From: Deltaproteobacteria bacterium
GTDB lineage: Bacteria > Myxococcota_A > UBA9042 > DTJE01 > S145-11
DNA length: 50,137 bases
Direction of reading: 5' to 3'
Assembly: GCA_015493765.1 (NCBI GenBank)
Contig: WGCQ01000272.1
Location: 1-50,137 of the forward strand
The notes below the pieces were generated by a model. It worked only from the letters and a program-made list of their open reading frames with translations. It ran no database searches and was not told where the DNA came from. Positions 6,042 through 29,594 of this stretch are shown piece by piece. The position numbers were made by a program, and so were the translations under genes. Position 1 is the first letter of the stretch, and each line of letters begins with the position of its first letter.

Positions 6042-9000
6042 TCATTTAAAATTCTCGTACTCCTGCCTGGTCAATGCGAAATCCGGGTCAATAATCTTTA
6101 CTTCTGCGTAATCCAGCCCGTACAGTTTGTACACCATGATGTCGATCCTGCGTTCCTGGGCCGAGGTGTCCTGGCCCAGGGCCTTTTTCGCAATGATTTG
6201 GTCCACCAGGTCCTCGAAGGGCTTTTGTTGTGCTTCTGGGATTTTGGGGATCTTAACTTCTGAAAGAAAATCTTGCCCTTTTCCTCCGGTTACATTTGTA
6301 CTTGCCAGCATCATCCTGGCAAACAAAAAAGAATTCAGGACTGCCAGAATCAATTTTAGCCTTTCACCCGTTATCAGATAAAGTTTGTTATTTGTGTACA
6401 GGCCCTCCTTTACCAGAGTTGCATTCATTGCATCACTTATTTCCCTATAAATGATCTTCTCTTTCTCGAATTCTTCATAATACCCTATCTGGTCTTGAGT
6501 CTCAAACCATTGATTTCCTGTCTTTTTTCGGCTTTTTTTCAGGTCCGACATCTTCAGCTTAATCCCATATTTCCGGGCATGTTCCATCAAGGATTGCCGT
6601 TCCTGTTGGCTTATTGGCCGTGCCTCTTGCACCAGTTTCGGCCAAAAACCCTGCAAAAACGCCTTTATTGCCGGGTAATCGTCAATGTCCAAATGTAATG
6701 CCGGAAACGTGGCAATCAACCACTTATCCGCGAAATTCGCCCTGTAGCGTTCGATGTCGCGGCCACGCAAGATCGGTTTTATGATTTCAGCGCTCTTTGG
6801 GTCCTTTTTTATCAGTTCGTCCCTGGTTTTGCCGTCAATAATAAAGGCCGGGTTGAAACCGGTCTTGATCCCGTAATTGATCTTTACATCCCATTGTTCC
6901 AACGGCGTGCCCATGCGCTGGATCTTGTCCTTTATTTGCTGTTCCTGTTTCGAAATAATGATCCAGCTTTGTTCACCCAGGTCATCCAAAGTGATGAATT
7001 CGTTGTCATCCAGCGCGGCCAGGTCGGTTTTGGCGTCTTTTCCAGCGTGCAACGTGATTGCCCGTACCCCGCAGTTTTCCTTTTTTATGTTCACGTCCTG
7101 CAATTTTTTGCCGGTCTTGCGGATCAACAGGATGTTCGTGTCCACGGTGGCCGTGTTGAACACGCCAGGCCCCAAATCGAGCAATTTCATGGGGTCATGC
7201 ACGCATAAAAAATGCCGCAATTTTTTGCCGTAAGCGGCACGCATCCACTTGTTCGACGTGATGTAACACAGCACGCCCGAGTGCTCCAGCAATTCAATGC
7301 CCCGTTCGTAAAACAGGGCATAGATGTCACCCGTGCGGTCAAAGGTGTAGTAATTTTCGTTTTTATAGAAATCAGCGAATTTTTCCCCGCTGCCCGATGC
7401 CTTTTGCAACTGGATATACGGCGGATTGCCTATTACGATGTCGAACGCATCCCTGCCAAACATCATTTTCGGGTCAAACCACGGACTGGGCCTGTTGCCA
7501 AAGGGGGCCCAGTTGCCCACTTTCGTGATCCACCCTGCCGAATGCGTGGCCTTTGCCTCTTTTTCAGCGATCAGGTCGCGCAACTCCAGGATCCTTTTTT
7601 TCAACCCTGACTTGTCATCACCGGTTGCATACATGTATTCGTCGCGATAGCGCTGTAATTCGCGGATATCCGCATCAGTTCCGGTGAAATCCAGGTCCGG
7701 GTTCCAATCCTTGCCCAGGTGGATCAACGTGTTGGCAGTCACGAATTTGAATTCCAGGTTCGGCAAGGCATAGATCCCGCGGTTTTTTGCGTGATCGTCT
7801 ATGCGCTCGTCCACCACCAGGCTCAAAAAACACCTCAGCCGGGCGATTTCCGTGGCAATGGGCTGGATGTCTACGCCGTAAATCGAATGCTGGATCACGC
7901 CCAGCTTGCGTATGTAATCCACCTCGGAATCATCCAGTTTTTTCCTTAAACTTTCGCGATAGGCCGGGTTTTCGATCTTTGCCAGTTGTCGGTCCTTCCA
8001 CCACTGGGCATCCGGGTCCAGTTTTTGCAGCGCCGTGGTGATCTTGTGCAGCGCGCCCATTGGAAAGGCCCCGCTGCCGCAGGCCGGGTCCAGCAGTTTC
8101 AGGGTGTCAAACGCAATCAACAGGGCGTTTTTTTGCTCCCCGGTGAATTCCACGTCATCATCCGTGAACAGGGCGTGCAATTTTTGTTCGTCGAGCCCTG
8201 TTTTGGCCTGCAAATGGGCCATCAGGGCCTGCTGCACCATGTAATCCACCACCGGGCGGGGCGTGTAAAAACTGCCCGTGGCCTTGCGCGCGGTCTGTTG
8301 CGTGGCCGGGTCGATTTCAGCCAGCAGGTTTTCGAATATGGTGCCCAGCATTTCCGGGTCAATGCTGATCTCCTGGTCGTTCAAGGAGTTTTCGTCAATG
8401 GTGAAATTGAACTGCTCCAGGGTTTGGAAAAAATCGACGAACCACTGGTCCGGGACCTTTAACGTGTTGTGGGAAAGGGAAAATCCACCGGGTCCGGGTT
8501 TATAAAAATCGTCCGGGTCCGGTTCGAACAGCCCGCCGTTTAAAAACGGCACGTACCGGTGTCCGTCGGGCAGGGTCGCATCGTCACGTTTGTCAACCGG
8601 CGTGTTCAGCATTTCAAAAAACAGTTTTTCCAGCAGCCCGTGATAGTAATCCCTTGTTTTTTCAACGTATTCGGATGACAGCCAGGCGTTTGGGATCAGG
8701 GGCTTGCCACTGTCGGATGACTTGTTTTTCAAAAACCACACGAACAGGGTACGCCCGATCAGTCGCACTGCGAACTGCCGGTATTTTTCCGGGTCCGTGT
8801 CAATATCCGTGGAAGGCAGTTTCAATGCGGGCTGGTAACGTTTTTTGTTCGTGGTGCTGCCCACCAGCCGGTAAAACGCATCCGCCACCCTGGTATAAAA
8901 CTCCCTGGTCACCGGTTCCACGCTGAATGCCTTTTGCAGGTTGTCCAGGTCGGTGAAATCCGCGCTGCCCACCTGTTTTTTGAACGTGGCGTTGGTCAAA

Positions 9001-9434
9001 TTGGGGCTGACAAAATACGTGTAGCGTTTGAACGTGGTGAAATCGCGGTTGCGGCCCTTGTACTGGGCGCGCACCAGGCTGAAACGAAAGGCGCCCGCAT
9101 CATCGTAAAACACGAAGATCGCGGCATCCCGGTTTTCGTATTTCAGTATGTCCTTGGCCACCTGGTACTGCAATTTTTTGCCTGTCCTGGATGTCAGGGA
9201 TTCCCGGCTCCTGGCCGCGATCACCACCAGCTCGTCGGCATTTTCCATTTGGGCAAAGCCCACCACCCGGATCCGTTCATATTTTTGCCGTATCTGTTCG
9301 TGAATGCGGGTATCACCCTGAAACAAAAAACCGTAATCCCGGTCATTCGGCCTGAAATCCGGGTTCACATCGCGGAAAAAACCTTGCAGGTTTTCAATGG
9401 AAAAATTTGCTATCAACCGCTCCAGGCGAGTCAT
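6042..9434 (-). CDS. Eco57I-type restriction-modification / adenine-N6 DNA methyltransferase (type IIG-like)
   Basis: The 1130-residue protein has the layout of single-chain Eco57I-like (type IIG) enzymes. An N-terminal region of about 350 residues could hold a nuclease fold. An N6-adenine methyltransferase follows, with TGSFYTPRPVVDYMV (about 387-400), the SAM motif LLDPACGSGAF (447-457) and the catalytic NPPY (670-673). The C-terminus resembles a TaqI-type specificity domain. I cannot point to a clear PD-(D/E)XK triad in the N-terminal part, so cleavage activity is uncertain. The start at 9434 has a good GGGAGG site. No separate specificity or restriction gene is adjacent. The gene is divergent from recCBD across a repeat-filled spacer. 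A PglX-like role in a BREX-type system is an alternative, but no other such genes are nearby. Confidence 0.85.
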   Translation of the reverse strand: MTRLERLIANFSIENLQGFFRDVNPDFRPNDRDYGFLFQGDTRIHEQIRQKYERIRVVGFAQMENADELVVIAARSRESLTSRTGKKLQYQVAKDILKYENRDAAIFVFYDDAGAFRFSLVRAQYKGRNRDFTTFKRYTYFVSPNLTNATFKKQVGSADFTDLDNLQKAFSVEPVTREFYTRVADAFYRLVGSTTNKKRYQPALKLPSTDIDTDPEKYRQFAVRLIGRTLFVWFLKNKSSDSGKPLIPNAWLSSEYVEKTRDYYHGLLEKLFFEMLNTPVDKRDDATLPDGHRYVPFLNGGLFEPDPDDFYKPGPGGFSLSHNTLKVPDQWFVDFFQTLEQFNFTIDENSLNDQEISIDPEMLGTIFENLLAEIDPATQQTARKATGSFYTPRPVVDYMVQQALMAHLQAKTGLDEQKLHALFTDDDVEFTGEQKNALLIAFDTLKLLDPACGSGAFPMGALHKITTALQKLDPDAQWWKDRQLAKIENPAYRESLRKKLDDSEVDYIRKLGVIQHSIYGVDIQPIATEIARLRCFLSLVVDERIDDHAKNRGIYALPNLEFKFVTANTLIHLGKDWNPDLDFTGTDADIRELQRYRDEYMYATGDDKSGLKKRILELRDLIAEKEAKATHSAGWITKVGNWAPFGNRPSPWFDPKMMFGRDAFDIVIGNPPYIQLQKASGSGEKFADFYKNENYYTFDRTGDIYALFYERGIELLEHSGVLCYITSNKWMRAAYGKKLRHFLCVHDPMKLLDLGPGVFNTATVDTNILLIRKTGKKLQDVNIKKENCGVRAITLHAGKDAKTDLAALDDNEFITLDDLGEQSWIIISKQEQQIKDKIQRMGTPLEQWDVKINYGIKTGFNPAFIIDGKTRDELIKKDPKSAEIIKPILRGRDIERYRANFADKWLIATFPALHLDIDDYPAIKAFLQGFWPKLVQEARPISQQERQSLMEHARKYGIKLKMSDLKKSRKKTGNQWFETQDQIGYYEEFEKEKIIYREISDAMNATLVKEGLYTNNKLYLITGERLKLILAVLNSFLFARMMLASTNVTGGKGQDFLSEVKIPKIPEAQQKPFEDLVDQIIAKKALGQDTSAQERRIDIMVYKLYGLDYAEVKIIDPDFALTRQEYENFK

Positions 9435-10096
9435 AAAACCTCCCTTACGCGCCAGTATAGGCCGCACAAAGCGGCCCTGTCAAACGTTTTTTTGCCGTGG
9501 CCGTGGCCGTTGTCCGAGGCCGTGACCGTTGGCCGAGACCGTGGCCGAGTGGAGCGCAGGCGTCCCGCCGGCCTTTTCCGTGACCGAGACCGTGGCCGAG
9601 GGCTCTCGGTTACAACGGAAGTCTTCCCGAAAGGCCCGAAGGGCCGTCCCGAAGCAGCCGAAGGCTGCGGCCCGATACCCGATGCCAGACACCCGAGTCC
9701 GAGGCCGTTGGCCGTTGACCGAGACCGAGGCCGAGTGGAGCGCAGGCGTCCTCGCCTGCTTGGTTCGCCGGCGTCCCGCCGGCCTTTTCCGTGGCCGAGA
9801 CCGAGGCCGAGGGTTCTCGGTTACAACGGAAGTCTTCCCGCAAGGACCGAAGGGCCGTCCCGAAGCAGCCGAAGGCTGCGGCCCGATACCCGATGCCAGA
9901 CACCCGAGTCCGTGGCCGTGACCGTTGGCCGAGACCGTGGCCGAGTGGGGCCGGCATCCTGCCGGCTATTTCCGTGGACGTGGCCAATGGGATGACGGAC
10001 GGTCACGGAAAGGCCATTCATGTAATTTGTATAAATACTACGGCCCGACTTGTGTCCATGTGTTATAATGCGGATAAGCCCAGAAGGGAGCAGGGG
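9435..10096. other. Gene-free spacer with satellites and a ~207-bp near-tandem duplication
   Basis: The spacer between the modification enzyme and recC holds no convincing gene. It contains hexanucleotide satellites (GGCCGT/GGCCGA type). A block of about 100 bases starts at TCTCGGTTACAACGGAAG and is present twice, near 9601 and 9809, with few differences. Long open frames exist here on both strands only because the repeats lack stop codons. One of them runs in frame into recC and gives a false 102-residue N-terminal extension. Promoters for both flanking genes should lie near the two ends. Confidence 0.75.
9598..9945 (+). repeat. Direct duplication, copies about 9598 and 9806 (family E)
   Basis: Two copies of a block share GGTTACAACGGAAGTCTTCC, the GCAGCCGAAGGCTGCGG hairpin (GCAGCC/GGCTGC) and CCCGATGCCAGACACCCGAG. 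They lie about 207 bases apart. Diverged relatives occur near 37620-37705 (reverse orientation) and 44812-44880. Confidence 0.75.
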
Positions 10097-23279: not shown

Positions 23280-25331
23280 TTACTGACGCAGGATGCGGGC
23301 CCCTCCCGGGTAACCGTAACTAACGTCCTTGTCCCATCCGTACACCACGATACCAAAGGCCCTGGAACCGGAAATAAAATGCGACCCCTCCCGGATTTCC
23401 ATGACCCCAATCGCGTAATCGCCTGTGACCCTGAACATCGAAGGGTCCAGTTGCTTGCCATCCAGGGTGATGCTTGCGCCCTTTGCCGCTATGATGTTCA
23501 GGTAATTTTTTGCGTATTTTCCAGGCACCAGGAAGGTGTATTTCGGCCTGAAACCACTGACCGGCACCGTCAGGATAAACGTGGGGTCACCAATTCCGGC
23601 GTCATCCGTGTCACAGTCCTTGTCCTTTTCGCAATACTTTTTGCTGTGTTCGCAAAAACAATCACCAACCACAATATTCGAACAGGGATAAGTGCCTCCC
23701 ATTTGCAGGTTCCCCACGCATTGTTCATCCGGGTCCGGCGCCTCGGAACCTTCCAGAAACTGTGCAACGGCGATGGGATAATCGGCCTCTATAACCACGT
23801 CCTTGTGGATTTCGAAATCGTATTTTTCGCCGGCCGCAAGTTCGGGAACCTGGGCCACTGGCGGTGTGACGGTCACGGTGGTGTGGTCATGGGTAGCCAG
23901 CACCCTTACCAGGTCGCCCGCCTTTCCGCGCTGGAAAGTCTTGGACACCACGTATTTTTTCCCAAGTGACTCCACGGGCACGATTTGCTGTTCAAGGTGG
24001 TCACAGTAGCCTACGAGTTCGCATCCATTGTAACCACAGGTATAGTCGTTTTGGAACGTACATTTCCCGTCTTTGCACTCGCTGAATGGCACATTTGCAC
24101 AGGCGCTGCCTGCAAATACCGCAACCTTATGGTCCGCTTTGACCAGGGTGCCGGTAAGGTCAGCCCCGACCTTGTGGGTTTCCAGGTTCAGCACCTCCCC
24201 GGAATTCAAGGTAAACTTGTATGTCTGGCCGGCCTGCATGGCTGGTACACCGTTCCCCGCCTTGATGTCCGCAGCCGGTATCACCGTTACATGAACCGGT
24301 GTGCCGGTAACACCGATCACGGTGACGTATGAACTGAGGTCCGCCCAGGATTGCGGATACGAAACCACCATGTAACTGGCACCCAGCGAGGCTTCCGGGA
24401 TCAACATGCTGGCGTCGTTACTGTACACGTCCACGTTTTCCAGTGGATTAAACTGGTAGGCCACAACAGGCAGGTCAGTCACGATTTGCCAGGCCCGTTG
24501 GCCCTTCATACTGCCCGTAACGTTATACGGTGGCAAATAGACCGGCGTGGAGCGTGACGGCGGCACCTGCAAGGTTTTGAACAGTGCCCCGGCCTTGTAA
24601 ATGCGTACGGTGGCAGTGGAGTTTTTACTGGTATTTCCAATCACCACGGCGAAAGGCGAATCCTGGGCGCTGTCTTCGTGGTTATAGGGATTTTTACCCT
24701 TCTGGTCCAGGTCAACGGCCCAGTACTTGCAACCGGCATTCGTTCCGAGTTTGGCATTTTCCTCGCATGGTGAAATACACCGCCCCATCCAGCAGTGTTT
24801 GCCCGTATGAACCGGGTCGCAATCCTGGACCAGGGACATGGAGCCGCCATCCGCGGAGCACTTCATCACCTTGTCGCCTTTGCAGGTCATCTGGCCGGGT
24901 ACGCAATCAAGGCATTTACCGTTTACGCACACCTTGTCCCCACAAGGAGTGGTTTCCCATCCTGAGCCATCCGGCTTGCACACGGCAGCCGCGTTGTTCT
25001 GGCAGGCCGGTTCCCCGCCGTGGCACACAGCACACCCCCCATTGAAGCATACCTTGCCCTGTGCCAGGCAATCCACCTTTTGCCATTTGCCGTCCGCATT
25101 GCACACCATGGATTCCTCGGTTTTGGTACATTGTTTTTGTCCCGGTGTACACCCTCCGTCTGTTTCCTTGATCGCGCTGTCACCCTTTGCGTAATCAAAG
25201 TCCACCAGGACCTTGTCCGGCGTATGCGCATCCTTCGACAGGCCGTTACTGGTACTGCCCCCGCAGGACATCAGAAATACCGTCGTCGTAAACACGATCA
25301 AGACGACAATCAAATTCAAAATTTTATTCAT
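23280..25331 (-). CDS. Cys-rich lipoprotein with IgGFc-binding-type domain
   Basis: The 683-residue product is a lipoprotein (lipobox LMSC, Cys23). After a short acidic linker come about three tandem Cys-rich modules of 40-45 residues, with motifs such as CTPGQKQC, CHGGEPACQNNAAAVC and CVPGQMTCKGDKVMKC. A long beta-rich region of the IgGFc-binding N-terminal type follows, with PVVAYQFNPLENVDVYSNDAS, VAVFAGSACANVP and CDHLEQQIVPVESLGKKYVV as landmarks. Such proteins are common in myxobacterial genomes and are thought to be surface adhesins; their ligands are unknown. The ATG at 25331 has an AAGGA site. A candidate -35 (TTGCAA at 25404-25409) lies 13 bases after a family A palindrome. Confidence 0.8.
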   Translation of the reverse strand: MNKILNLIVVLIVFTTTVFLMSCGGSTSNGLSKDAHTPDKVLVDFDYAKGDSAIKETDGGCTPGQKQCTKTEESMVCNADGKWQKVDCLAQGKVCFNGGCAVCHGGEPACQNNAAAVCKPDGSGWETTPCGDKVCVNGKCLDCVPGQMTCKGDKVMKCSADGGSMSLVQDCDPVHTGKHCWMGRCISPCEENAKLGTNAGCKYWAVDLDQKGKNPYNHEDSAQDSPFAVVIGNTSKNSTATVRIYKAGALFKTLQVPPSRSTPVYLPPYNVTGSMKGQRAWQIVTDLPVVAYQFNPLENVDVYSNDASMLIPEASLGASYMVVSYPQSWADLSSYVTVIGVTGTPVHVTVIPAADIKAGNGVPAMQAGQTYKFTLNSGEVLNLETHKVGADLTGTLVKADHKVAVFAGSACANVPFSECKDGKCTFQNDYTCGYNGCELVGYCDHLEQQIVPVESLGKKYVVSKTFQRGKAGDLVRVLATHDHTTVTVTPPVAQVPELAAGEKYDFEIHKDVVIEADYPIAVAQFLEGSEAPDPDEQCVGNLQMGGTYPCSNIVVGDCFCEHSKKYCEKDKDCDTDDAGIGDPTFILTVPVSGFRPKYTFLVPGKYAKNYLNIIAAKGASITLDGKQLDPSMFRVTGDYAIGVMEIREGSHFISGSRAFGIVVYGWDKDVSYGYPGGARILRQ

Positions 25332-25423
25332 TTGTAATCCTTGAGTAACAGGTCGGTCCAACATGCAAAGACATTGTAATTCTTTATCAAATCTCGCAGG
25401 CCTTTGCAAGATGCTTGGTAGGC

Positions 25424-27941: not shown

Positions 27942-29042
27942 TTACCTTAAGCGCCTCAGCCTTTTCAGGACGTCCAAAACCCCATCCGCAGTACTGGAGT
28001 CGTCCTGCAACATCTGCACCTCTTCTTCAATACTGCGGCGGCGTCCATCCAATTTGACGTACTGGTCTATGGATTTTTTGAGTTTTTTCCGTGTCATGGT
28101 GTCGGCCAGTTCGCGGAAGTCGTCCACCAGTTCCTTGGGCTTACGTGAGTACAGCATTGACAGGGTAATCCTGGGCCTGGCCAGGGATTCATTCAGGAGC
28201 ACGCTGTACACGGGGATCACGTTGTCCTTGGCAAAATGGTCGATCAGGTCGTAAAACAAACTCGCACTGCCCTTCTGAGGAACTTCCAACAGAAACATGG
28301 CCTCGATGGGTTGTTCCGGAGGCAGTAAAAGTGGATTGATGTTTTCAGTGATCTGTTTGTCCAATGGTTGGTCCGCCTGGTATTCAAACACGTTGAAATG
28401 GTTGAAATACGGCTTTGTCGTGTATATCCTGAAATCCTCGTAGTCGATATGACCATCGAGTATCTCCATTTTTTTGTTTTTTTCCGGAATGGCATAGAAT
28501 TCCCGCAAACCGGAAAGCATCAGGTCGTTGAAATCGGCCTCTGCCAAGCGCTTTTCGAACTTCAGTTTATTGGTGAACAAGAACATGTTGCCCGTATTAC
28601 CGGCATCAATAGCCGGAGATACGCTGTCCATCAGGAAATCTATTGTATTTTCCACGTATTCCAGGGGTTCCTTGCCCAAATACGGGAGAATAAAGGCAAA
28701 TACCGTGGTATCGTTCAGTGGAATATTTTCCTGTTCGGACAGTTTTTTTAACAAGACCGAAGTAATTCCGCTACCAGTGCCACCGCCGGTGGAGGTAAAC
28801 ACGATATCCCCCTTGATGATATTCAATAGCTGCTCTTCGATGGTCACAGAGGCCATTCTGCCAACGATAGGATTTTTGCCTGACCCCCGAAATTGTCCCC
28901 GGCTGGAGTGGACCACTGCAAGAATTTTTTCCTTTGCCTCTACCTTGGACAGTTCGACCTCGGAAATATTGACGATCGTGGAATGTTCCGGGTCAAACAA
29001 TACGGCCAGCTTGGAACCGGCGCCCCCAATACCCACACTCAT
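27942..29042 (-). CDS. Divergent FtsZ/tubulin-superfamily GTPase
   Basis: The 366-residue protein follows the FtsZ/tubulin nucleotide-binding plan from its first residues. T1 is GIGGAGS (4-10). A T3-like RGSGKNPIVGR (52-62) matches FtsZ GxGxNPxxGR. The T4 tubulin signature GGGTGSG is at 86-92. A T7-like synergy loop HIDYEDFR (198-205) keeps both acidic residues (D200, D203), so GTP hydrolysis on polymerisation is expected. The C-terminal half is divergent and ends in a basic, helical tail (RRRSIEEE...LKRLRRLR) rather than the FtsZ C-terminal peptide. It is not the cell-division FtsZ. It overlaps the winged-helix gene by 4 bases (ATGA) and has a strong AGGAGG site. TubZ-like or FtsZ-like (FtsZl-type) classes are candidates. 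Confidence 0.85.
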   Translation of the reverse strand: MSVGIGGAGSKLAVLFDPEHSTIVNISEVELSKVEAKEKILAVVHSSRGQFRGSGKNPIVGRMASVTIEEQLLNIIKGDIVFTSTGGGTGSGITSVLLKKLSEQENIPLNDTTVFAFILPYLGKEPLEYVENTIDFLMDSVSPAIDAGNTGNMFLFTNKLKFEKRLAEADFNDLMLSGLREFYAIPEKNKKMEILDGHIDYEDFRIYTTKPYFNHFNVFEYQADQPLDKQITENINPLLLPPEQPIEAMFLLEVPQKGSASLFYDLIDHFAKDNVIPVYSVLLNESLARPRITLSMLYSRKPKELVDDFRELADTMTRKKLKKSIDQYVKLDGRRRSIEEEVQMLQDDSSTADGVLDVLKRLRRLR

Positions 29043-29389
29043 ATTTTGCCTCCTAAAAAGGTTGATCCTACCAGTTTGTGTGTCTGTTGCCTGGCTTGCA
29101 TTTCAAGGGCCTTTTCCCCTGCTTCGGTGATATAGATATTCTTGCGGTTGCTTTCCTCGCGTATCTCGACCAGGCATAATATCTCGAGGGTTTCCACAAA
29201 ACACACAGCGCTTTGCTTGGTTCGCGTTTCACCCGCGCTTTTCAGGTCGTCGAATGCATTGGTTATGTTGTATTTACGGTGCATTACCTCGGCCTGTGCA
29301 GCCCAGTAGAGGATCAGAAAGTGCGACCTTTTCAGTCGCTCTAATTGTTTTTTCCACAGATCTGTCTCTACGGGTGCTGTGTTTGCCAT
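29039..29389 (-). CDS. Winged-helix DNA-binding protein, partner of the FtsZ-like GTPase
   Basis: The 116-residue protein has the helix content and wing of a PadR/MarR-like or TubR-like winged helix. HFLILYWAAQAEVMHRKYNI is followed by a helix pair (AFDDLKSAGETRTKQSAVCFVETLEIL). A beta hairpin wing (CLVEIREESNRKNIYITEAG) and a final helix complete it. It has no partner-domain or enzymatic signature. A GAGGTG site lies 10 bases before the ATG. Its stop overlaps the start of the GTPase gene, so the two are made together. A perfect inverted repeat lies 68 bases upstream and is the obvious candidate binding site. By analogy with TubR it could tether the filament to DNA, but autoregulation alone is equally possible. 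Confidence 0.7.
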   Translation of the reverse strand: MANTAPVETDLWKKQLERLKRSHFLILYWAAQAEVMHRKYNITNAFDDLKSAGETRTKQSAVCFVETLEILCLVEIREESNRKNIYITEAGEKALEMQARQQTHKLVGSTFLGGKI

Positions 29390-29419
29390 TTTGGTCTGTC
29401 ACCTCGCAAGCCTTTCAAT

Positions 29420-29448
29420 AACTTAGCGCAAAAAACGAACAATGTCAA
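29420..29448 (-). promoter_or_regulatory. Candidate promoter of the winged-helix/FtsZ-like operon
   Basis: On the minus strand TTGACA (29443-29448) and TAAGTT (29420-29425) are separated by 17 bases. The inverted repeat at 29457-29490 lies 8 bases upstream of the -35 box. Confidence 0.55.
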
Positions 29449-29456
29449 GTAAAAGA

Positions 29457-29490
29457 TAGTGTAGTATAGTTTTGATAGCATACTACACTA
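29457..29490. promoter_or_regulatory. Perfect 11-bp inverted repeat, operator or centromere candidate
   Basis: TAGTGTAGTAT (29457-29467) and ATACTACACTA (29480-29490) are exact reverse complements around a 12-base AT-rich centre, so the arm centres are 23 bp apart, about two helical turns. The site is between the divergent winged-helix and permease genes. It is not followed by a T-run, so it is not a terminator. GTGTAG also repeats directly next to the right arm (read on the minus strand). Confidence 0.75.
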
Positions 29491-29594
29491 CACTTTATCA
29501 TGTGCCTACCCCTGATAACAAGGCATGAATCAACGTAATGTGGTATATAATTGTCCGGTTTCTTTTTGCTGTCTTGATATTCAGGGAGTTGAAT

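Follow-up and report, generated by a model that had tools for sequence, protein, structure and literature searches.

In this study we describe a real and conserved chromosomal module that resembles the TubRZC systems in its parts, gene order, protein fold, motifs and repeat array. It lies in a stretch of 50,137 nucleotides (contig WGCQ01000272.1 of a Deltaproteobacteria genome, hereafter the window), where a gene for a winged-helix protein is followed by a gene for a tubulin-like GTPase and preceded by an array of short repeats (Table 1). We consider it probable that these elements make up a chromosomal TubR-TubZ-tubC-like cassette, in which the array serves as an anchor and a GTPase filament holds, tracks or positions a chromosomal locus.

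Table 1. Positions of the cassette features in the window.
Feature	Position	Strand	Details
TubZ/FtsZ-like GTPase gene, 366 aa	27942..29042	-	residue 1 at 29042; translation
Codons of the basic C-terminal tip VLDVLKRLRRLR (residues 355-366)	27945..27980	-	conserved in the GTPase family
Codons of the T7 motif HIDYEDF (residues 198-204)	28431..28451	-	catalytic acidic loop; D200 at 28443-28445, D203 at 28434-28436
ATGA stop/start overlap of the two genes	29039..29042	-	sequence; translational coupling
TubR-like winged-helix gene, 116 aa, first in the operon	29039..29389	-	translation, AlphaFold model, profile match to TubR
Putative tubC-like centromere/operator	29450..29497	.	two opposed repeat blocks; foldback z -4.2
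Perfect 11-bp inverted repeat	29457..29467 / 29480..29490		
Repeat block 1, TAGTGTAGTATAGT	29457..29470	+	TAGTGTAGT at 29457-29465 and TAGTATAGT at 29462-29470, in 5-bp phase
Repeat block 2, AAGTGTAGTGTAGT	29482..29495	-	exact TAGTGTAGT at 29482-29490; one-mismatch copy at 29487-29495

The translation of the GTPase gene contains GIGGAGS (T1, residues 4-10), GSGKNPIVG (T3, residues 53-61), GGGTGSG (T4, residues 86-92) and HIDYEDFR (T7, residues 198-205), as reported in an earlier reading of the window made without database searches (the sequence-only reading). The protein matches the Pfam Tubulin family PF00091 with 39.4 bits (cut-off 33, E 1e-9). Moreover, the tubulin GTPase fold on which that reading depended was found in the AlphaFold model (pLDDT 86.5), which shows a tubulin/FtsZ fold with a long helix after the core (residues 302-328). 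Foldseek aligned this model with FtsZ at an E-value of 6e-19 and with TubZ at about 1e-15, TubZ giving the highest TMq (0.67-0.69) among the PDB matches listed. About 160 residues follow T7; in the alignment and the model the C-terminal region consists of a variable, low-confidence linker and then the basic tip.

Relatives of the GTPase were not found by a genome scan with the single sequence, for which the peptide patterns used were poorly conserved. When 36 relatives were searched, a genome of the window's class yielded a protein of 47% identity, preceded by a winged-helix gene homologous to that of the window, and a profile built from these two sequences recovered 42 loci in GTDB genomes. 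The relatives belong to Lentisphaeria (Victivallales, Oligosphaeraceae), Kiritimatiellota (Pontiellaceae), some 'Verrucomicrobia' MAGs and one Myxococcales MAG, HKST-UBA33. The T1 glycines, the T4 core and the T7 residues D200 and D203 are invariant in an alignment of 43 sequences of the family. At the C-terminus, a basic tip of the form VLxxLKRLxKL is conserved in the family after the variable linker, and the net charge of the last 12 residues lies between +2 and +5 in all members counted.

The GTPase profile matched FtsZ at 3.8e-7 and RepX/TubZ at 1.2e-6, while hhalign aligned it with plasmid TubZs over 234 columns (E 7.8e-9) and with FtsZs over a 99-column GTPase core (E 4.5e-9). By sequence alone the GTPase is equally close to TubZ and to FtsZ and cannot be assigned to one of them. 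With the FtsZ of cell division it shares the GTPase domain, the T1, T3, T4 and T7 motifs and the fold, but it stays far under the score of the FtsZ equivalog TIGR00065 (28.6 bits, cut-off 295), has no match to the FtsZ_C domain and does not lie beside ftsA. The GGGTGSG form of T4, proposed before as a mark against division FtsZ, does not serve as one: it is the ordinary FtsZ form, and the majority of the family has GGGTGNG. The very short N-terminus also listed as distinctive is indeed present, but as a TubZ-like trait. The features in common with TubZ are an N-terminus that begins with the first strand, a long helix in the C-terminal part and a basic tip. Plasmid TubZ tips, such as ALKRLKR in the Bacillus velezensis protein or LKSLKK, resemble that of the family described here.

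Two other tubulin-like groups were compared. PhuZ of jumbo phages gives a weak profile match (3.4e-5) and a fold match in BFVD, but here there is no phage homologue or phage context and the partner is different. It is highly improbable that the GTPase is a member of the FtsZ-like families FtsZl1 or FtsZl2 of Makarova and Koonin, with a role in membrane remodelling, a reading favoured by weak Tubulin_2 matches in 5 of the 43 members (best E 0.0034). FtsZl1 proteins have an extended coiled coil and an alpha-helical C-terminal domain, are encoded in vWA/GTPase operons, and have a T6-H7 region that could not be identified, while FtsZl2 proteins are proteobacterial, with a mixed alpha/beta C-terminal region of about 300 aa and without conserved gene neighbours (PMC2875224). 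In contrast, T7 is intact here, the window protein has 366 aa and the winged-helix partner is always present; FtsZl2 is set apart by its description, and FtsZl1 by length and neighbours. The Lentisphaerae are not mentioned in the main text of the 2010 paper on these families (PMC2875224) or of the 2023 survey of the superfamily (PMC9871819).

The first gene of the operon encodes the 116-residue winged-helix protein that had been read from the sequence, and both its position and the ATGA overlap with the GTPase gene are borne out. The protein belongs to no significant Pfam family. Its AlphaFold model (pLDDT 91.6) has a helix-helix-helix-helix-strand-strand-helix order, which is the published TubR topology alpha1-4, beta2-3, alpha5. 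When the family profile was compared with all PDB sequences, TubR of pBM400 was the best match at E 0.0038, and no other sequence came under 0.15; furthermore, hhalign aligned the profile end to end with plasmid TubRs (92.9%, E 3.7e-7, 90 columns). In the Foldseek search many winged-helix proteins matched the model at similar E-values, TubR 4asn having the highest target TM-score of the list (0.78).

The two genes stay together throughout the family. The winged-helix gene lies directly upstream of the GTPase gene in all 41 loci that could be tested, L060 being left out of the count because its sequence begins inside the GTPase gene. The genes overlap by 4 bp (ATGA) in 19 of 40 loci and are separated by 1 bp in 16 of 40. 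The sequence-only reading had named genes that are never neighbours and T7 acidic residues that are not conserved as grounds against it; instead, the neighbourhood is constant and D200 and D203 do not vary. In a Mantel test, the distances of the partner proteins were correlated (r 0.71, 0 of 2000 permutations), which shared ancestry explains in part. Both genes are under purifying selection, dN/dS being far below 1 for each in six close pairs.

This arrangement is that of the plasmid type III systems, in which a TubR-type winged-helix gene directly precedes tubZ in the same operon; in pBM400 of Priestia megaterium the order is tubR-tubZ with a 4-bp overlap, the same as the ATGA of the window. 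In these systems tubC consists of repeats upstream of tubRZ, and TubR both acts as a repressor of the operon and binds to the tail of TubZ (PMC7762940, PMC5016525). Direct or inverted repeats upstream are found here too, as a matter of anatomy. The comparison with TubRZC made in the sequence-only reading holds by both protein sequences, by gene order and overlap and by the upstream repeat array. The module differs from TubZRC in that no TubY was seen, that a Ser/Thr kinase is present in one clade and that identity is about 20%.

The 11-bp perfect inverted repeat noted earlier just upstream of the operon is present, and it forms the core of an imperfect 18-nt inverted repeat, the putative tubC-like element. 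A more fitting description is that of two blocks of a (TAGTR)n array in 5-bp phase which face each other head to head; it replaces that of a lone operator hairpin. The nonamer TAGTDTAGT occurs three times in the 50-kb window (0.17 expected), each time within the same 34-bp element. Among the relatives, TAGT[AGT]TAGT was found upstream in 37 of 42 loci, with 88 occurrences in the 500-bp upstream regions (20.5 kb in all) against 9 in the remaining 542 kb of locus DNA. Because the motif had been chosen on these loci, it was tested again on unused ones, where it was present in all 13 new rows (12 of 12 distinct loci), 22 times in 6.3 kb upstream and not once in 45 kb elsewhere.

When one mismatch was allowed, 294 array sites were counted where first-order shuffles gave 26.6. 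All 371 same-strand pairs of sites within 60 bp are spaced by a multiple of 5 bp, including the 225 pairs that lie at least 10 bp apart and so do not overlap. The sites are grouped into one or several blocks, which often lie on opposite strands and are located for the most part from -30 to about -450; it is common for an array to have 5-10 phased sites, divided among several blocks over hundreds of bp. A stricter motif, TAGTRTAGTRTA, was found 22 times in 12 whole genomes, 19 of them just upstream of the GTPase gene, and once in the window genome, at the cassette. The three matches away from the operon (G384:C486:33234, G574:C1:1361697 and G379:C1:268787) may be chance or secondary sites. For tubC no such pentamer is reported in the cited literature, whereas here it is the unit of the array.

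A promoter scan, which is suggestive only, placed a consensus-like -10 element across one of the repeats in 9 of the 42 loci, a weak hint that the array is also an operator. Such a self-contained array could serve autoregulation only, and the module would then be a cytoskeletal filament without DNA transport, whose winged-helix protein is the repressor and whose array is the operator, with a role in shape, division or the envelope, under kinase control where the kinase is present. We regard this explanation as rather unlikely: 5-10 phased sites in several blocks exceed the needs of a simple operator, the closest solved relative of the winged-helix protein is a centromere-binding protein, and the tip of the GTPase tail resembles TubZ tails. 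It is consistent with what is thought of chromosomal TubZ/TubY without TubR in some Clostridia, namely that they do not segregate DNA (PMC7762940). These share with our module a tubulin-like TubZ on the chromosome but lack TubR, whereas here the winged-helix partner is invariable and the array nearly always present.

In 20 loci, which fall in a single clade, the operon has a third gene, downstream of that for the GTPase, which encodes a Hanks-type Ser/Thr kinase, an arrangement that would fit a signalling or shape role of an autoregulated filament. These loci are L034, L036, L039, L043, L045-L051 (L052 excepted), L053-L056, L058, L059, L062, L064 and L065, and the N-terminal region of the kinase is variable and often rich in RRYLS/KYLS. 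No such kinase adjoins the operon of the window. Apart from the kinase, the neighbours of the cassette vary among loci; within the flanks fetched, no gene for the MerR-like TubY was among the recurrent ones.

The distribution of the module centres on the order of Oligosphaera ethanolica, where 44 of 48 genomes carry it as a single copy. It is present in 59 of 198 genomes of the class (Lentisphaeria), in 29 of 289 genomes of the phylum of that species and in 2 of 379 genomes of the window's phylum; O. ethanolica DSM 24202 is a named strain with the module on its chromosome. The assignment to chromosomes follows from four genomes in which the cassette and dnaA share a contig and, for the window, from the core genes on its contig. 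No relative of the GTPase was found in 72,556 plasmids and 50,697 phages, nor in viral contigs. The described TubRZC systems sit on plasmids or phages, whereas this module is chromosomal and near-universal in one order.

A partition cassette stranded by an integrated plasmid or phage, and hence the remnant of such an element instead of a host system, would agree with that habitat of the described systems and with horizontal acquisition in the window's lineage. This origin is nevertheless very unlikely, given the single copy kept across the order under purifying selection, the lack of any plasmid, phage or viral relative, the dnaA contigs, and flanks in which no recurrent mobile-element neighbours were noticed.

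In the four genomes the cassette lies 44 kb, 0.69 Mb, 1.49 Mb and, on a contig of 1.95 Mb, 1.08 Mb from dnaA, so a fixed distance was rejected. This inconstancy argues against a simple role in origin segregation, or an origin-proximal centromere, and is in favour of the autoregulated filament. Of the 198 genomes in the class, no more than 10 have a ParB (TIGR00180, 1e-15), from which most Lentisphaeria appear to lack a chromosomal ParABS. The idea that the module compensates for loss of ParB found no correlation behind it: ParB is rare across the class with or without the module, occurring in 3 of 59 carriers and 7 of 139 non-carriers, which is no contrast. By analogy, ParABS also combines a chromosomal DNA-binding protein, an NTPase and clustered sites, but its protein families are unrelated to those described here.

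A canonical FtsZ is encoded elsewhere in the window genome and in that of HKST-UBA33; the GTPase of the module need not do division there, which again is compatible with an autoregulated filament. The canonical gene of the window genome (L019 1432-2703, G000:C8) adjoins an FtsA-like gene. In its product, T4 has the unusual form LGKGTGSG, and T7 reads NIQIGD instead of NxDxAD, which gives the catalytic loop a degenerate appearance.

The window's copy of the module appears to have come from outside its lineage. The GTPase nests in a Lentisphaerota clade together with that of L025 (support 97/95, then 99/96 and 100/99), so the cassette was probably acquired horizontally. A Lentisphaeria contig contaminating the window MAG was ruled out by composition and by Der: the tetranucleotide correlation of the window contig is 0.93-0.97 with nine other contigs of the same genome and does not exceed 0.72 with any of the Lentisphaeria loci compared, and the Der protein on the contig is closest to its own order. 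The contig also carries myxobacterial GltJ/AgmX domains, tRNAs, recBCD, der and pssA-type genes. The GTPase of HKST-UBA33, a MAG of the same GTDB class as that of the window, stands elsewhere in the tree, on a long branch; a second transfer is likely for it, its tree position being unsure. Elsewhere in the window, 6042-9467 (-) encodes a 1141-aa adenine methyltransferase that adjoins der/tRNA-Leu and recBCD and shows a weak relationship to PglX proteins of BREX (70 bits at best, well under the cut-off), and 23280-25409 (-) encodes a 709-aa protein with an IgGFc-binding domain (2.4e-65).

Because the module was found on chromosomes and not on plasmids or phages, we do not place it among the plasmid type III partition systems; our leading hypothesis is that it functions in the same manner. 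For the module we infer DNA binding, polymerisation, recruitment, movement and chromosome segregation; in the plasmid systems, the first four of these have been published (PMC7762940, PMC5016525, PMC5322520). In the proposed TubRZC-like mechanism, dimers of the winged-helix protein would coat the phased repeat array, and the coated array would have two functions, as the operator through which the operon is repressed and as an anchor comparable to a centromere. The GTPase would form GTP-dependent filaments and dock with its basic C-terminal tip on the coated array, so that the end of the filament could hold, track or position the chromosomal cassette locus. In the clade that has it, the Ser/Thr kinase of the operon would probably tune the filament.

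We found no description of a chromosomal TubR-TubZ pair in the open-licence literature, to which the search was confined, so the priority of the present report is not certain. More tentatively, and at odds that we hold to be somewhat less than even, the whole order may use a tubulin-type filament and a centromere-like array, and not ParABS, to segregate or position its chromosome, the module being inherited vertically with occasional transfer to other phyla. The published descriptions of tubulin-based (type III) DNA partition concern plasmids and phages, and a chromosomal module of this kind would be a different solution to positioning. The strictly phased 5-bp array provides a defined DNA target, and the named carrier strain makes the question testable. 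If the proposal is true, these bacteria would possess a chromosome spindle of the type III kind, a natural analogue of tubulin-driven mitosis.
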